Shown in pieces: positions 854-12,135 of a stretch of 34,284 nucleotides of DNA (position 1 is the first letter of the stretch; the number at the start of each line of letters is the position of its first letter). The notes beneath the pieces are model-generated. The model did not search any database and was not told where the DNA came from. It was given only the letters and a program-made list of their open reading frames with translations. Position numbers and translations under genes: made by a program. Location of the stretch: contig DYOQ01000031.1 in NCBI GenBank assembly GCA_020720455.1, forward strand, positions 1 through 34,284, read 5' to 3'. The DNA comes from Bdellovibrio sp. (lineage in GTDB: Bacteria > Bdellovibrionota > Bacteriovoracia > Bacteriovoracales > Bacteriovoracaceae).

Positions 854-2302
854 TTATAAAATTGTCTCAAAATGTTGTTGATTAAAAAATTCAAAAAAAC
901 AGATTGTTCGATCGAAGTACTCATCAATATAGGTCGAAAGTTCTTCTTCACTAGTGTGGATAAGGATTTTTTTCAAACCATACCGAGGAGGTATTTTTAG
1001 TGCCATTTCTTTTCTCCTTACTTCATCTACAACCGATGAGTTAATTTTGTACTGTGATTTAACTTCTATAATATAAAATAGTGATTTAGTTTGAATCAAA
1101 TAATCGATTTGACAACCATCGTGCCTAGTTGTCTTTTTTTGGTAGTATGGGCCAAAATTGATTAATTCAGAAGAAGATATTTTTAATAATTCCATTAGTG
1201 ATTGAGTGTTGTTTATAACAAGGTTTTCTAGTTGATAACCTAAAAAAGCGCTATAATTTTTAATTTCGTCGAGAGAGGTAATATTTAAAATTCCGGCTTT
1301 GATTTTTTTGATATTGGGCCGAATTTGTTTAAGATAAAAACGTAAATAATTGTCAGAAATCCTATAGCGTGTTGATTTGGTAGACTTCTTTGAAGCCGTG
1401 AAATTCCAGCTGTCGTGTGCAGAGACGAAACCACTTAAAATAAGATCGTTCATATATTTTGTATATTTCCCGCTTGGGCCGATCCCTAAGTCAGAAAAAA
1501 TCTCACTAAGTGTCCTAGGGCCATCCATGAGAGATATTACAATATCTTTATAGGTTGACGCTCGTGTATTAAAAATGTCATTAAAAATTCTCTCAAACTC
1601 GCTATAGAATAGGCCACCTTCTTTAAATGACAGCTGGGCCACAAGGGCAGGTATCGAAATAGATTTTTTATATTCCTTGAGGTATCGAGGGACACCGCCT
1701 GAATGTAACAAAAAAAGCAATTTCTCAGATGGACTTGTATCCTTAGAAAAAAAACAGGAAGCATCTTTTAGTGGTAGTTCTCGCAGTAAAATATCTAAAT
1801 TTATTCGTCCCAAAAAATCTGTAGAGTTGAGAATATTGTCACTGATCCAAGAGGTTATGCTCCCACACAGAATAATCGTTAGTTTTTTATTTGTGTGAAA
1901 TTCAGTATCGTATGACTGTTTTAAAATGCTTGTAAATTTAGAATCTGATCCTGCCATCCAAGAAATTTCGTCCAAGAATAGAAGTGTTTTTTTTTGACCA
2001 ATCATTTTTGAAGCAAAAATAAATGAGTCTCGCCAGTTGTTGTAAGATGGTCTTGGTAGTTTAGTTTGTCTGCAAAACTCAGATAAGAAGTTGTCAATTT
2101 GATCTTGGTTAGTTACGCCTTTTGATGGGGCCAGTCCTTGAATTTCAATGTAGTTATTTATGTTTTTTCCAAATTCACGGATCAGTTCGCTTTTGCCAAT
2201 TCTTCTTCGTCCATAACAGGCAATGAGCTTTGCTGTACGTTGTTCTCCAACAAGTACGGCATCTCTTAATTGAGCAAGCTCTTTTTTTCTTCCAATAAAC
2301 AT
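854..2302 (-). CDS. AAA ATPase with C-terminal PD-(D/E)XK-like domain (DUF234/COG1672-type)
   Basis: About 482 residues. The ATG at 2302 is chosen over an upstream start at 2323 because a GGAA ribosome-binding sequence lies about 6 nt before it and family members begin MFIGRKKEL. Seen in order: the N-terminal GR-x-x-EL motif, Walker A GRRRIGKS (Lys37), Walker B LLFLDE near residue 115, a sensor-like LILCGS stretch, a winged-helix-like segment (LSEIFSDLGI), and a C-terminal ID...IIEVK motif with Asp400, Glu413 and Lys415 spaced as in PD-(D/E)XK nuclease folds. This is the architecture of the archaeal-type AAA+ ATPases with DUF234/DUF4143-like tails, found patchily in bacteria and often suspected to be mobile; their biological role is not established. 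It is followed by a coupled lipoprotein gene and preceded by two long palindromes. Nuclease activity is inferred from the motif only. Confidence 0.85.
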   Translation of the reverse strand: MFIGRKKELAQLRDAVLVGEQRTAKLIACYGRRRIGKSELIREFGKNINNYIEIQGLAPSKGVTNQDQIDNFLSEFCRQTKLPRPSYNNWRDSFIFASKMIGQKKTLLFLDEISWMAGSDSKFTSILKQSYDTEFHTNKKLTIILCGSITSWISDNILNSTDFLGRINLDILLRELPLKDASCFFSKDTSPSEKLLFLLHSGGVPRYLKEYKKSISIPALVAQLSFKEGGLFYSEFERIFNDIFNTRASTYKDIVISLMDGPRTLSEIFSDLGIGPSGKYTKYMNDLILSGFVSAHDSWNFTASKKSTKSTRYRISDNYLRFYLKQIRPNIKKIKAGILNITSLDEIKNYSAFLGYQLENLVINNTQSLMELLKISSSELINFGPYYQKKTTRHDGCQIDYLIQTKSLFYIIEVKSQYKINSSVVDEVRRKEMALKIPPRYGLKKILIHTSEEELSTYIDEYFDRTICFFEFFNQQHFETIL

Positions 2303-2315
2303 TAAGGTTCCTTGT

Positions 2316-2353
2316 CGGTGCAAGAAATGAACAATTTGTTATATCTTGCACCG
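2316..2353. repeat. Imperfect palindrome, copy 1, upstream of the ATPase gene
   Basis: The left arm CGGTGCAAGAAATGAACAA faces a degenerate right arm ending ATATCTTGCACCG. The outer 9 bp of the arms pair perfectly (CGGTGCAAG / CTTGCACCG) and the inner part is partly mismatched. It shares its whole left arm with copy 2, 19 nt further on. It lies 14 nt upstream of the ATPase ATG at 2302 and, read on the minus strand, contains a TATAAC sequence (2338-2343) that could be that gene's -10. It could be an autoregulatory operator, a 5' UTR hairpin or a REP/MITE-like element. Confidence 0.75.
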
Positions 2354-2371
2354 GTTGGGTATCTTTGTAAA

Positions 2372-2406
2372 GTGCAAGAAATGAACAAATTGTTCATTTC
2401 TTGCAC
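2372..2406. repeat. Perfect 17-bp-arm palindrome, copy 2
   Basis: GTGCAAGAAATGAACAA, one central A, then the exact reverse complement TTGTTCATTTCTTGCAC: a perfect 35-nt inverted repeat. It is too long for most simple repressor sites and has no T-tract on either side, so it does not look like an intrinsic terminator. It shares the 17-nt left arm with copy 1. It sits between the divergent ATPase (-) and nrdJ (+) genes. Confidence 0.85.
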
Positions 2407-2620: not shown

Positions 2621-5600
2621 GTGAAAATTAAACGAGTTTTTACAAAGAAAGGTAAATCATCTTATCAAGGAATGAAGTTCGAGAAACGAATGAGTAGTAT
2701 TCGCGGTACCGACGGAAGAAAAAGCGAAGAGGTGGAGGTGCTTGTACCTTCTGCTTGGTCTCAGGTAGCAACAGATATCATTGCTCAAAAATATTTCAGA
2801 AGAACAGGCGTTCCATTAAAAGACAAAGATGGAAATAAACTTATAGATGATAAAGGCCAATCAGTTCTTGCTGGTGAGACAAGTGCCGCTCAAGTGTTTG
2901 AGCGACTTGCAGGTTGCTGGAGAGGGTGGGGCGAATGTTATAAATATTTTGATACTATAGAAGATGGTGATGCATTTCAATCTGAGCTTGAGTATATGCT
3001 AGCAAACCAGATGTGTGCACCAAACTCACCACAATGGTTTAATACCGGTCTTTTTAGTGCTTACGGTATAGAAGGAAAAGCACAGGGGCATAGTTATGTA
3101 GATCCTGTGAGTGGTAAGCTGATGAAGTCGACTTCAGCATATGAGCGGCCTCAACCTCACGCCTGTTTTATTCAATCAATTGATGATGATTTAGTAAACG
3201 CTGGCGGAATTATGGATCTTTGGATTCGTGAAGGGCGTCTTTTTAAATACGGTTCTGGAACTGGAACAAATTTTTCAAAGATTAGAGGATCAAAAGAGCC
3301 TCTATCTGGTGGCGGGTCATCTTCAGGACTAATGTCATTCTTAAAAATAGGAGATAAGGCCGCGGGAGCTATTAAGTCTGGTGGTACGACAAGACGTGCG
3401 GCAAAGATGGTTACTCTAGATCTTGATCACCCAGATATAGAGGAGTTTATCGAGTGGAAATCAAAAGAGGAGCGAAAAGTTGCAGCTCTTGTTACTGGTT
3501 CAAAAATTTGTAAGAAACACCTTGGCACTGTTTTTGATGCGATCAAAGATGGTAGCGGAGATGATCGTTTTATTGCTAATAAGAATCCTGCGTTAAAGAA
3601 AGCAATGAAAGAAGCTAATCGTGATCACGTTCCAATGAATTACATTGCTCGAGTGGTTGATTTGGCGAAACAGGGTGTGACTGGAGTTCAGTTCGAGGTT
3701 TATAACACCGATTGGAATTCTGAAGCTTATGAGACAGTTTCTGGGCAAAACTCTAATAATTCGATTAGAGTTCCAAACAGCTTCTTTAAACTTTTAGAAG
3801 AGGGTGGAGAGTTTGAACTGATTGGAAGAGTGAACAAGACGGTATTTAAAAAAATACCAGCGAAAGAGCTCTGGGAAAAAATTAATACCGCCGCTTGGAA
3901 TTGTGCTGATCCTGGCCTGCAGTTTGATGATACAATTAACGAGTGGCATACATGTCCGGCCGATGGAAGAATAAATGCTTCGAACCCTTGTTCGGAGTAT
4001 ATGTTTTTAGATAATACGGCCTGTAATTTAGCATCACTTAATTTGCTTAAGTTTTATGATGAAGTTACAGGGATGTTCGACGTCGAAAAATTTATTCATG
4101 CAACTGAGCTTTGGACAGTTGTGCTTGAGATCTCGGTTCTGATGGCGCAGTTTCCTTCTGAAGAGATCGCTCTTCGTTCTTATCAATATAGGACTCTTGG
4201 ACTTGGTTTTGCAAACATTGGTGCTTTGTTGATGGTTATGGGGCTTCCATACGATTCAGAAAAAGGTAGAGCAGTAACTGCTGCAATCTCATCGATCATG
4301 GGTGGAATCTCTTATAAAACCTCTGCGCTTTTGGCCAAAGAACATGGGCCATTTGAAGCGTTTAATCGAAATCGTGAAGATATGTTGAGGGTCATTAGAA
4401 ATCATAAGCGTGCCGCTTATGGAGTTGCCAGTGTGGAGTATGAAGGGCTAAGCGTTAAGCCGGTTATGTTTGATCACTCTAAGGTGGATGCTTATTTATT
4501 AAAGGCTGCAACTAAGGCATGGGACGATGCTTTAGAGCTTGGTGAGAAACATGGTTATAGAAATGCGCAAACTACGGTAGTTGCTCCAACTGGAACGATT
4601 GGCCTAGTTATGGATTGTGATACGACTGGAATTGAACCAGACTTTGCTCTTGTAAAGTTTAAAAAATTAGCTGGTGGTGGTTATTTTAAAATTATCAATA
4701 AGGCAGTTCCATTAGCGCTTAAAAATCTTGGTTATATTTCTTCTCAGATAGATGAGATCATTAAATATGCTGTAGGTAGAGGAAGTTTAGATGGATGTCC
4801 TCATGTTAGTAGCAAGAGTTTAAAAGAGAAGGGATTTTCAGAAGAGGTTATTAAAAAAATAAATGATTCTCTTGGAAGTGCGTTTGATATCTCGTTTGCA
4901 TTTTCTCCATTTATAATTGGTGAAAAATTTCTTCAGGAAAAATTTCATTTATCAAGTGAAGAGATCGCAAGTCCATCTTTAAACATTCTTGAAAAATTTG
5001 GATTCACTAAGAAAGAGATAGAAGAAGCTAATAATTATGTTTGTGGGACAATGACTCTTGAAGGTGCTCCTCATTTGAAAGAGGGCGATTATTCTGTTTT
5101 TGATTGTGCTAGTAAGTGCGGAAGAGTTGGAACAAGAATGATTTCTCCTGCTGGCCACATTAAAATGATGGCATCAGTTCAACCATTTATCTCAGGAGCA
5201 ATCTCTAAAACTGTAAATATGCCAACTGGGGCAACCGTTGGAGATATTGCCGAAGCTTACCACATGTCGTGGAGATTAATGACAAAGGCAAATGCGATTT
5301 ATCGAGATGGATCAAAGTTGTCTCAACCACTTAATGCTCAAGCGTTTGAAGATCTTTCAATGATGGATATGGATGAAATCAGCAAGAGTGAGCAGATTAC
5401 TAAAATTGCGGAAAAAATGGTTGAAAAAGTTATTGAGAAGGTTGTCTATAAGGAGAGAAGTAGTCGCAAAATTCTTCCAAATAGAAGGAGTGGATATACT
5501 CAAAAAGCAAATATTGGAGGCCATAAGATATATTTAAGAACAGGTGATTATAGTGATGGCCAGCTTGGTGAAATATTTATTGATATGCATAAAGAGGGAG

Positions 5601-6127
5601 CTGCTTATCGTTCACTGATGAACTGTTTTTCAATTGCGATCTCTTTAGGTCTTCAATATGGGGTTCCTCTTGAAGAGTTTGTTGATGCTTTTACCTTTAC
5701 TCGCTTTGAGCCAAACGGAATTGTTATTGGACACGATAATATTAAGATGGCGACAAGTGTTATCGATTATATTTTTAGAGATTTGGCAATGAAGTATCTT
5801 GGTAGAAACGATCTTGTCCATGTCAAACCTGAAGATTTAAAATCTGATGCTGTTCATGGAGAGGAAGCGGCGGAAGTGCCACTTCTAGCGATAATGAATA
5901 ACGAAACAGAGCTTCATGCAGATGGGGCCGCTGCAACTGTTAGCGCTCACGCTGTTTATTCAAATGAATCTAATTCTAGAATGGTTTCAGAACAAAAGAA
6001 AAGAGCTGTGGCACAGATGAAAGGTTATGTTGGTGATCCGTGCCCAGAGTGTAATTCTATGACACTTGTAAGAAATGGTTCATGTTTAAAGTGTGATACC
6101 TGTGGATCAACCACTGGCTGTTCATAG
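2621..6127 (+). CDS. nrdJ: Vitamin B12-dependent (class II) ribonucleotide reductase
   Basis: 1168 residues, the usual length of the long NrdJ type. It reduces ribonucleotides to deoxyribonucleotides using adenosylcobalamin to make the thiyl radical, so it works with or without oxygen. The start is GTG at 2621, with GAGGAG eight bases before it. Visible landmarks are [10 protein letters not shown] in the N-terminal part; the redox cysteine pair Cys182 (PHACFIQ) and Cys468 (TACNLASLN); and the finger-loop motif NPCSE with Asn455, Cys457 (radical cysteine) and Glu459. The extreme C-terminus is a cysteine cluster (Cys1141, 1144, 1155, 1158, 1161, 1167) resembling a zinc ribbon followed by a redox tail. 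A separate nrdAB or nrdD is not visible in the window. Upstream NrdR-like boxes suggest repression by NrdR. Confidence 0.96.
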
Positions 6128-10506: not shown

Positions 10507-11778
10507 TCATCCTATGACTCGAAAAGCTTTCGCCATCGAGTCTTGCATCCTTCTGGATATTCCCAATTTATTGGCAAACGCTCTCCATTTTAAGGCCGAC
10601 TTTTTAACTTTCTCGATGATTTTCTTTGCTCTTAATTCATCTATTCTAAAATATTCTATAACAGACAAGGCAAGCTCTAAACTTTGAGAATTATCATGCT
10701 CTGAAATATTTAACCTCAGTCCGTTTCCATCTGCATTTGGATTTATGTCGTAAGCAGGAGAAAGCCTCCAACCGGTCTCTTCTAAAATAAAACCATGATT
10801 TCTTAAATGATCATCCACGTTTGAAATGCAAATATTAAGAACAATTCTTCTCCAGAGTTCTTCTAAATCTTCATCTACTTTTGAACCACTACGAATTATG
10901 AACTCTGCTAAGTCAAGATAGCTAACACCTAAAGTATGGCCACTTCCATCTGTTTTTCCTAAACAAGTCATTGCTGAAGCAAAATGGAGTCGACCGTGTT
11001 TTCCTCTGTCAAATCTTTCTGTTAAAAATGTGTAATTGTCATTATTAAACTTCTGGGCCTTGCATGCGGACATATTTATGCCGGCCCCCAGAGCTATTTG
11101 GTAAGCGACCATTTCCCACCCACCAATATTGGTGTCATCATACTTGCTGGGAAATTTTGCAATCCATAAATTTCCCTCTTCATCAACAATGCTTGCTTTG
11201 GGCCTGGCCCCCCCCAAAGAAGAACCTGGAGAAATAAGCATGTTAAGCCATTTTATGTACTCTTTTGAAGTCTCATCTTTAGCTTCTTCAATCTTTAGAC
11301 TGGCCTGTTCTAACTCCCTTAATCTTGCCCACGGAGGCGTTGCAAATTCTGTTTTATTATTTAAGAAATCACCATCTAAATCTAATTTGAATCTTAGTGC
11401 CCCCATTCGGTTGCCATCGTAGACACCTAAAAGATAGTTACTCTCGTGTAGTTTTCTAGGAATTCGGCCCTCATTTCTTGCAAGTACGGCCTCTCGCTTT
11501 TGCATTAAAATCCTTCCCCAACGATCAGGACAAGAATCAGTAAAAATACCAAAGTTTGATTTTCCTTCTTCTAAATACTGATCTCCTGAAAAAAGCTGCA
11601 GGTCAGGATCTAGCTTTTGAGCAAATCCATTTGAAATCCATTTTTTATCATAAGAAAAAGAGAATATTTCTTCCCCCCTCACAACATCAGCAGAAAGAAC
11701 TCCCATTAGCGTCGGGCCATCTATCCCTATCCAATCAGCGTATACGTAAATGTGTTTTCGTTCTTTTTTTGGGGCCAT
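10507..11778 (-). CDS. hipA: HipA-family serine/threonine kinase toxin
   Basis: 423 residues, close to E. coli HipA (440). HipA kinases phosphorylate a protein target (GltX in E. coli) and bring on growth arrest and persistence; the HipB antitoxin neutralises them. Seen: the N-terminal subdomain (LMGVLSADVV, YLEEGKSNFG, SCPDRWGRIL); the Gly/Ser loop SPGSSLGGARPKA (183-195), with Ser183, Ser186 and Ser187 as possible autophosphorylation sites; the ATP-binding Lys208 in LWIAKF; the catalytic NVDDHLRN with Asp322 and Asn327; and the metal-binding Asp344 in SPAYDINP. All key residues are present, so it looks active. It starts two bases after the hipB stop, the usual antitoxin-first order. Its target here cannot be told from sequence. 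Confidence 0.93.
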   Translation of the reverse strand: MAPKKERKHIYVYADWIGIDGPTLMGVLSADVVRGEEIFSFSYDKKWISNGFAQKLDPDLQLFSGDQYLEEGKSNFGIFTDSCPDRWGRILMQKREAVLARNEGRIPRKLHESNYLLGVYDGNRMGALRFKLDLDGDFLNNKTEFATPPWARLRELEQASLKIEEAKDETSKEYIKWLNMLISPGSSLGGARPKASIVDEEGNLWIAKFPSKYDDTNIGGWEMVAYQIALGAGINMSACKAQKFNNDNYTFLTERFDRGKHGRLHFASAMTCLGKTDGSGHTLGVSYLDLAEFIIRSGSKVDEDLEELWRRIVLNICISNVDDHLRNHGFILEETGWRLSPAYDINPNADGNGLRLNISEHDNSQSLELALSVIEYFRIDELRAKKIIEKVKKSALKWRAFANKLGISRRMQDSMAKAFRVIG

Positions 11779-11780
11779 TT

Positions 11781-12101
11781 TTATTCTCTAGTTCTTTTGG
11801 GAGCTCTCTGTTTTGTAAAAAGACCTGCATCTTGAATTTTTCTTCCTAGAACATCATCTTTAGCAACATCTAGAAAATCCTTATCGAGTCTCATCACAAA
11901 CAATACTTGAAAATAACTTCCCATTGAAACACCATCATCACCCTTTTCTATTTTCACTAGAGTAGAGCGACTTATACCAGCACGTTCAGCAATTTGATCC
12001 ATGGAGAGCTTTCTTCTTAAGCGGGCGAGCTTAATATTTTCCCCAAATATCTCTAGTGTTTTCTTGGCCTGTGGTAATATAGGATTCTTTTTAGTTTTCA
12101 T
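11781..12101 (-). CDS. hipB: HipB-like helix-turn-helix antitoxin and autorepressor
   Basis: 106 residues from the ATG at 12101. An upstream ATG at 12131 would add SIWFIIINI, which merely translates the operator DNA, so I prefer the shorter form. An XRE-type helix-turn-helix spans about residues 20-65 (GENIKLARLRRKLSMDQIAERA, then the recognition segment GISRSTLVKIEKG). The C-terminal tail is basic (KRTRE). It should bind DNA as a dimer at the two palindromes just upstream and neutralise HipA. No Shine-Dalgarno sequence precedes this ATG, and the first operator ends 3 bp from it, so the transcript may be leaderless or nearly so. The next gene, hipA, begins two bases after the stop. Confidence 0.9.
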   Translation of the reverse strand: MKTKKNPILPQAKKTLEIFGENIKLARLRRKLSMDQIAERAGISRSTLVKIEKGDDGVSMGSYFQVLFVMRLDKDFLDVAKDDVLGRKIQDAGLFTKQRAPKRTRE

Positions 12102-12104
12102 TAT

Positions 12105-12120
12105 GTTTATAATTATAAAC
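12105..12120. promoter_or_regulatory. hipBA operator 1 (perfect palindrome)
   Basis: GTTTATAATTATAAAC is a perfect 16-bp palindrome ending 3 bp before the hipB ATG. It contains TATAAT, which could be the -10 of a near-leaderless promoter. Its centre is 31 bp (three turns) from operator 2, so two HipB dimers would sit on the same face of the DNA. Confidence 0.82.
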
Positions 12121-12135
12121 CATATCGACATTTTT

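Follow-up and report, generated by a model that had tools for sequence, protein, structure and literature searches.

The window analysed here, a stretch of 34,284 nucleotides from a Bdellovibrio sp. genome, carries on its reverse strand a gene whose predicted product joins a STAND-type AAA ATPase to a winged helix and a PD-(D/E)XK tail, with two related palindromes immediately ahead of it (Table 1). Gene and palindromes sit between orf1, which encodes a lipoprotein-like product, and nrdJ (2621-6127), which looks like a class II ribonucleotide reductase gene. Two NrdR-box-like sites (atgctatatctggtgt and agcactatatatagcgtatg, within 2450-2535) and a 14-bp inverted repeat (2466-2479 / 2520-2533) lie upstream of nrdJ. 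At the other end, the ATPase stop codon is about 1 bp ahead of the ATG of the lipoprotein-like downstream gene (850-856), so read-through into that gene is likely. Elsewhere in the window there is a HipA-like kinase gene (10507-11778), and next to it a small ORF (11781-12131) occupies the position expected of a HipB-like partner; both were named by eye.

Table 1. Positions of the gene, its predicted protein domains and the palindromes within the window
Feature	Position	Strand	Remarks
PDC-S27 gene for a STAND-type AAA ATPase with winged helix and PD-(D/E)XK tail	854..2302	-	482 aa (P0001)
PD-(D/E)XK motif region, E359 - D400 - E413xK415	1058..1228	-	motif conservation
Winged-helix domain, residues 265-315	1358..1510	-	AF2 model; HTH_5 matches in homologues
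Turn and recognition helix codons, residues 274-289	1436..1483	-	residues 276, 277 and 279 covary with private box
Walker B region LFLDE, residues 108-112	1967..1981	-	LDE conserved among homologues
Walker A GRRRIGKS, residues 31-38	2189..2212	-	conserved among homologues
Proximal palindrome, imperfect, same half-site	2316..2353		left arm, gene strand: GTGCAAGATATAAC (possible -10)
Distal palindrome, perfect, 17-nt arms, 1-nt centre	2372..2406		half-sites GTGCAAGAAA / TTTCTTGCAC

The window gene is assigned to PDC-S27, a single-gene anti-phage candidate, because its product matches the PADLOC profile of that name nearly end to end (E 5.2e-69; residues 2-450 of 482 against profile positions 4-451 of 474). 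All 66 aligned homologues also match this profile. Pfam additionally identified AAA_14 in P0001 (5e-7), and a PDB sequence search with the protein returned nothing useful. An AlphaFold2 model of P0001 was obtained with a pLDDT of 94 and a pTM of 0.91, and a fold search, which covered residues 1-358 well, gave 2qen (Z 21.1) and 2fna (Z 20.4) as neighbours, followed by plant NLR, CED-4 and Orc1/Cdc6. In the model, the predicted winged helix comprises helices 265-272 and 278-289 and wing strands 293-300 and 305-315, and HTH_5 was independently detected in 7 of the 66 homologues. The PD-(D/E)XK-like tail noted in the original prediction proved to be real by motif: E359, D400 and E413 are invariant across 66 sequences and K415 is nearly so, a signature by which the P0001 tail is assigned to the PD-(D/E)XK superfamily.

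The two palindromes of the window

Translation most likely starts at the ATG at 2302, which has an SD-like AAGGAA, rather than at a TTG at 2323, and with this start both palindromes lie upstream of the coding region. The perfect and the imperfect palindrome were present as originally described, with one 17-nt arm (GTGCAAGAAATGAACAA) common to both, and their centres are 54.5 bp apart, which is the family value. About 7e-5 perfect palindromes with 17-nt arms would be expected in the window by chance, and the distal copy is the sole palindrome there with arms of at least 13 nt (spacer up to 12). Terminators had been considered unlikely, and in agreement no terminator-like site or T-tract was called at either palindrome. 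A possible -10, TATAAC, can be seen by eye in the imperfect left arm of the proximal palindrome on the gene strand, but a promoter scan of the window called no promoter overlapping the palindromes, TATAAC included. An Rfam search of the window returned no family.

In its own 2.7-Mb genome (G000), the 17-mer is confined to these two palindromes. When two mismatches were allowed, two single matches were found elsewhere in the genome, equal to the control count, and no near-exact copy of the window palindrome was found in viral contigs.

Upstream repeats across the gene family

A contig search with P0001 as the single query found no relative, whereas an alignment or profile query of named genomes was successful. 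The best 80 loci taken from it belonged mainly to Chlamydiae, Verrucomicrobia, Legionellales and other Gammaproteobacteria, Alphaproteobacteria, Dependentiae and Desulfobacterota, and adding further loci brought the set to 238 genes, of which 173 remained after redundancy was removed at 90% identity. PDC-S27 homologues also occur on plasmids and phages. A distant homologue is situated among the head-tail genes of Wolbachia phage WO (L287, 2300-3949), where two ACC(A/G)CGG...CCGCGGT copies lie about 56 bp apart, each enclosing TATAAT. Among 97 related genomes, five carry the gene, with up to 17 matches each, some of them broken, and six matches were found in the window's own genome. In two relatives (L299 and L301) the orf1 homologue adjoins nrdJ and the ATPase is absent between them, and in three further relatives an orf1 homologue lies near nrdJ. 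Judged by gene order, the ATPase is a predicted single-gene block that was gained or lost as such.

A perfect inverted repeat with 9-nt arms and a span of 28-50 was found at most 160 nt upstream of 70% of 171 non-redundant homologues. By the same criterion, the regions upstream of neighbouring genes gave 6% and those downstream of PDC-S27 genes 8%. For spans of 28-44 the frequency was 62%, against 2.6% in dinucleotide shuffles, and the spans concentrate at 30-48 with few beyond. About 10% of homologues have no inverted repeat even at 9/10 arms, and no clear repeat was seen for two haloarchaeal plasmid homologues. The letters of the repeat vary by gene (TATCACC, GGCACG, TTGACTTG, TATCCGC and TCATAAA, with GTGCAAG in the window), and on comparison across many bacterial phyla, what the family shares is the architecture of the upstream palindrome and not its sequence. 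A search for the palindrome upstream of homologues, as originally proposed, thus had a divided outcome, the window sequence being absent and the architecture present. To take absence of the palindrome sequence from close homologues as refutation would have misled, since the architecture persists.

EM alignment of the half-sites gave the consensus (T/A)TGtcGATTTnnnG, read from inner to outer. Of 194 adjacent facing pairs of half-sites, 172 have their centres 17-18 bp apart, and 61 of 66 distances between tandem palindromes, measured centre to centre, fall at 53-55 bp. A check independent of the EM, made on 74 loci with two same-type repeats, returned a distance of 53, 54 or 55 in nearly all, together with a second cluster near 108 that represents third copies. 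The two arms agree with each other at 0.72-0.99 at motif positions 8-17 and are near-random inside, and agreement confined to these positions is as would be seen for a protein footprint. Unpaired half-sites also occur in the family. TATAAT with up to one mismatch was found at chance levels in the linker (18 vs 17.6) and in the leader (47 vs 41.8). The exact hexamer TATAAT showed a mild excess (10 vs 4.1) in the stretch from the last palindrome to the ATG. A -10 that always overlaps a palindrome was rejected for the family, in which the -10 keeps no consistent place with respect to the palindromes.

The site is also nearly exclusive to the gene. Across 30 genomes, the TATCACC-type palindrome was found at 12 loci, and gene coordinates place a PDC-S27 gene immediately after it at 11 of these; a reversed-pattern control gave no matches in the same genomes. 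For the palindromes tested, this near-exclusive position next to PDC-S27 counts against both a REP-like element and a regulon. The twelfth locus (L306, about 1501-1587) has an orphan pair of palindromes, 55 bp apart, and no PDC-S27 gene; the DUF4143 gene next to the pair has other repeats of its own.

Covariation between protein and site

Mutual information was computed between the private box positions (11-13 and 15-17) and the protein columns, and scored against permutations. S277, K279 and P276 were the top three of 482 covarying columns, and the best 11-residue window was 274-284. Residues 276, 277 and 279 form the start of the predicted recognition helix of the winged helix. The same three columns remained the top three when boxes were shuffled within clusters of related proteins at three cut levels, the clusters being defined without the winged helix and the control of relatedness being coarse. 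Residue 279 lies at the 99th percentile of column entropy, beside conserved positions.

The pairings involve particular bases. Lysine at 276 goes with G at box position 12 in 37 of 44 cases and with T at position 13 in 41 of 44, while V, L or I at 279 goes with T at position 16 (34/41) and D279 with G at the same position (11/13); the half-site register was chosen by fit (EM), and some loci may be misassigned. The resulting residue-to-base table looks like a code. A crude comparison of pairwise box similarity with whole domains had been nearly flat, and the signal appeared only after EM registration of the half-sites. Orthogonality among paralogues within one genome did not exceed what divergence would predict, leaving selection for orthogonality unsupported. 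One genome (G138) has four paralogues (L226, L233, L234 and L240) with the boxes CGTGCC, CGTGAC, TGTGAC and TGTGCC, which are single-base differences in combination.

A proposed private operator and its alternatives

As the simplest account, we propose that each PDC-S27 protein probably reads its own private operator and autoregulates. The family palindromes, their geometry, their near-exclusive link to the gene and the protein-DNA covariation were established by computation, and because the palindromes recur across the family and their differences in letters track the recognition helix, the most likely reading is that the gene is controlled by its own product, bound at the palindromes. Of the three options raised in the original prediction, autoregulation is the best supported, with repeats only 5' of the gene and private letters that covary with the recognition helix. 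The idea that the palindrome is the protein's DNA substrate survives in so far as the protein very likely binds there; the mobile unit to which the idea was tied is unsupported.

According to this operator model, the recognition helix of the PDC-S27 winged helix would read a half-site of roughly 10 bp, composed of a T-tract core and a locus-specific part (TTTCTTGCAC in the window). One dimer would cover one palindrome, with its half-sites 17-18 bp apart, and two dimers would be placed 54-55 bp apart, a distance of about five helical turns that would put both on one face of the helix. The bound protein would hold down its own expression until infection or another signal changes its ATP/ADP or oligomeric state. 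Binding of the protein to its own palindrome is a prediction well supported by the covariation, the position of the palindromes points to repression, and we infer the dimer stoichiometry and the link to defence.

A simple repressor would not require a spacing as strict as 54-55 bp, which is a counterpoint to autoregulation, and such rigidity combined with a free linker suggests that the two dimers touch. With this spacing, the DNA may control activity as well as expression. An explanation built on this feature is that the tandem palindromes hold the ATPase-nuclease on DNA in a fixed inactive oligomer, like a STAND switch tethered to DNA, so that release or rearrangement activates the nuclease and transcription control is secondary. 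We consider this unlikely, given that a pure platform has no need of the strictly 5' position near the start codon, although the rigid distance between palindromes (53-55 bp in 61/66), the free linker sequence, promoter elements without a fixed place and a fold related to STAND NTPases and Orc1/Cdc6 all speak for it. Orc1/Cdc6 proteins bind inverted origin boxes close to their own gene, and this structural kinship, together with the intact PD-(D/E)XK motif, would also suit a protein that cuts or melts DNA at its own palindrome. However, cutting would be self-damaging at a site that lies beside the protein's own chromosomal gene and nearly nowhere else, and no replication initiator gene was seen adjoining the site; we judge a nuclease target or origin-like site very unlikely.

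Two further explanations fare worse. The repeats might act in the transcript as hairpins, in translational control or as an RNA antitoxin, and in some genes they lie where the 5' leader is likely to be, with arms that could form stems of roughly 10 bp closed by loops of about 14 nt. Against this, the covariation points to the recognition helix of the winged helix, the palindromes keep a helical-turn spacing, arm mismatches show no clear excess of G-T over A-C (76 vs 55), unpaired half-sites exist and the window contains no Rfam family, making an RNA element highly improbable. Equally, the palindromes might belong, as ends or as dispersed substrates, to a mobile unit or a REP-like element employing the ATPase-nuclease, as had been raised originally. 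The patchy distribution (5/97 related genomes, up to 17 matches, broken copies), the presence or absence of the single gene between orf1 and nrdJ and the homologues on plasmids and phages fit such an element, yet the 17-mer occurs at one locus only in its genome, which speaks against a REP-like repeat, and terminal repeats are missing 3' of the gene despite its gain or loss as a single-gene block. As downstream repeats are at background across the family (8%), the palindrome is not dispersed and Pfam and PADLOC searches found no transposase or integrase domain, we regard this origin as extremely improbable.

In the portion of the published description that we draw on, PDC-S27 is an ATPase fused to a PD-(D/E)XK domain, a single-gene candidate with thousands of copies in bacterial and archaeal genomes and no known mechanism, and experimental validation is pending for most such defence candidates (PMC12988326). 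That portion makes no mention of upstream palindromes or of a DNA-reading winged helix (PMC12988326), and in the literature that was partially covered we found neither a mention of upstream repeats for the PDC-S27 family nor a description of an ATPase-nuclease family with the reader in the effector and an own site for each copy. We put forward, as a tentative and somewhat doubtful generalization, that a large STAND ATPase-nuclease family may be controlled by binding a private, fast-diversifying, rigid tandem palindrome beside its own gene, with the effector acting as a DNA-anchored sensor, a specificity code readable from sequence and many such pairs per genome. A gene-specific site with fixed geometry names for each protein its DNA ligand, the reading residues and the expected assembly, and it is a direct handle by which binding, regulation and triggering can be tested together. 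If the residue-to-base table holds, the family would offer a series of naturally occurring DNA-binding domains whose specificity is readable.

Several known systems resemble parts of this arrangement. The archaeal AAA ATPases 2qen (P. abyssi PABY2304) and 2fna (SSO1545) have the same fold over P0001 residues 1-328 at about 18% identity, but the matches end before the PD-(D/E)XK tail and the entry titles name no DNA ligand. Orc1/Cdc6 proteins are alike in their AAA domain and winged helix (Z about 14), whereas the P0001 family differs in its gene-private boxes and its nuclease tail. The PDC-S01/DUF4143 ATPases have a related architecture, and some have private inverted or direct repeats upstream, which are less regular (perfect 9-nt inverted repeats in 11/26 and 2/10). 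The window's own genome has 40 DUF4143 matches of the PDC-S01 type in 2.7 Mb (e.g. L321-L339), some with direct or inverted repeats upstream. Finally, RptR binds repeated sites before a defence locus and represses the promoter of that locus (PMC12255303). RptR is a small protein of its own that serves as regulator, and its site is conserved; PDC-S27, in contrast, would carry the reader inside the putative effector itself, and its site differs from gene to gene.
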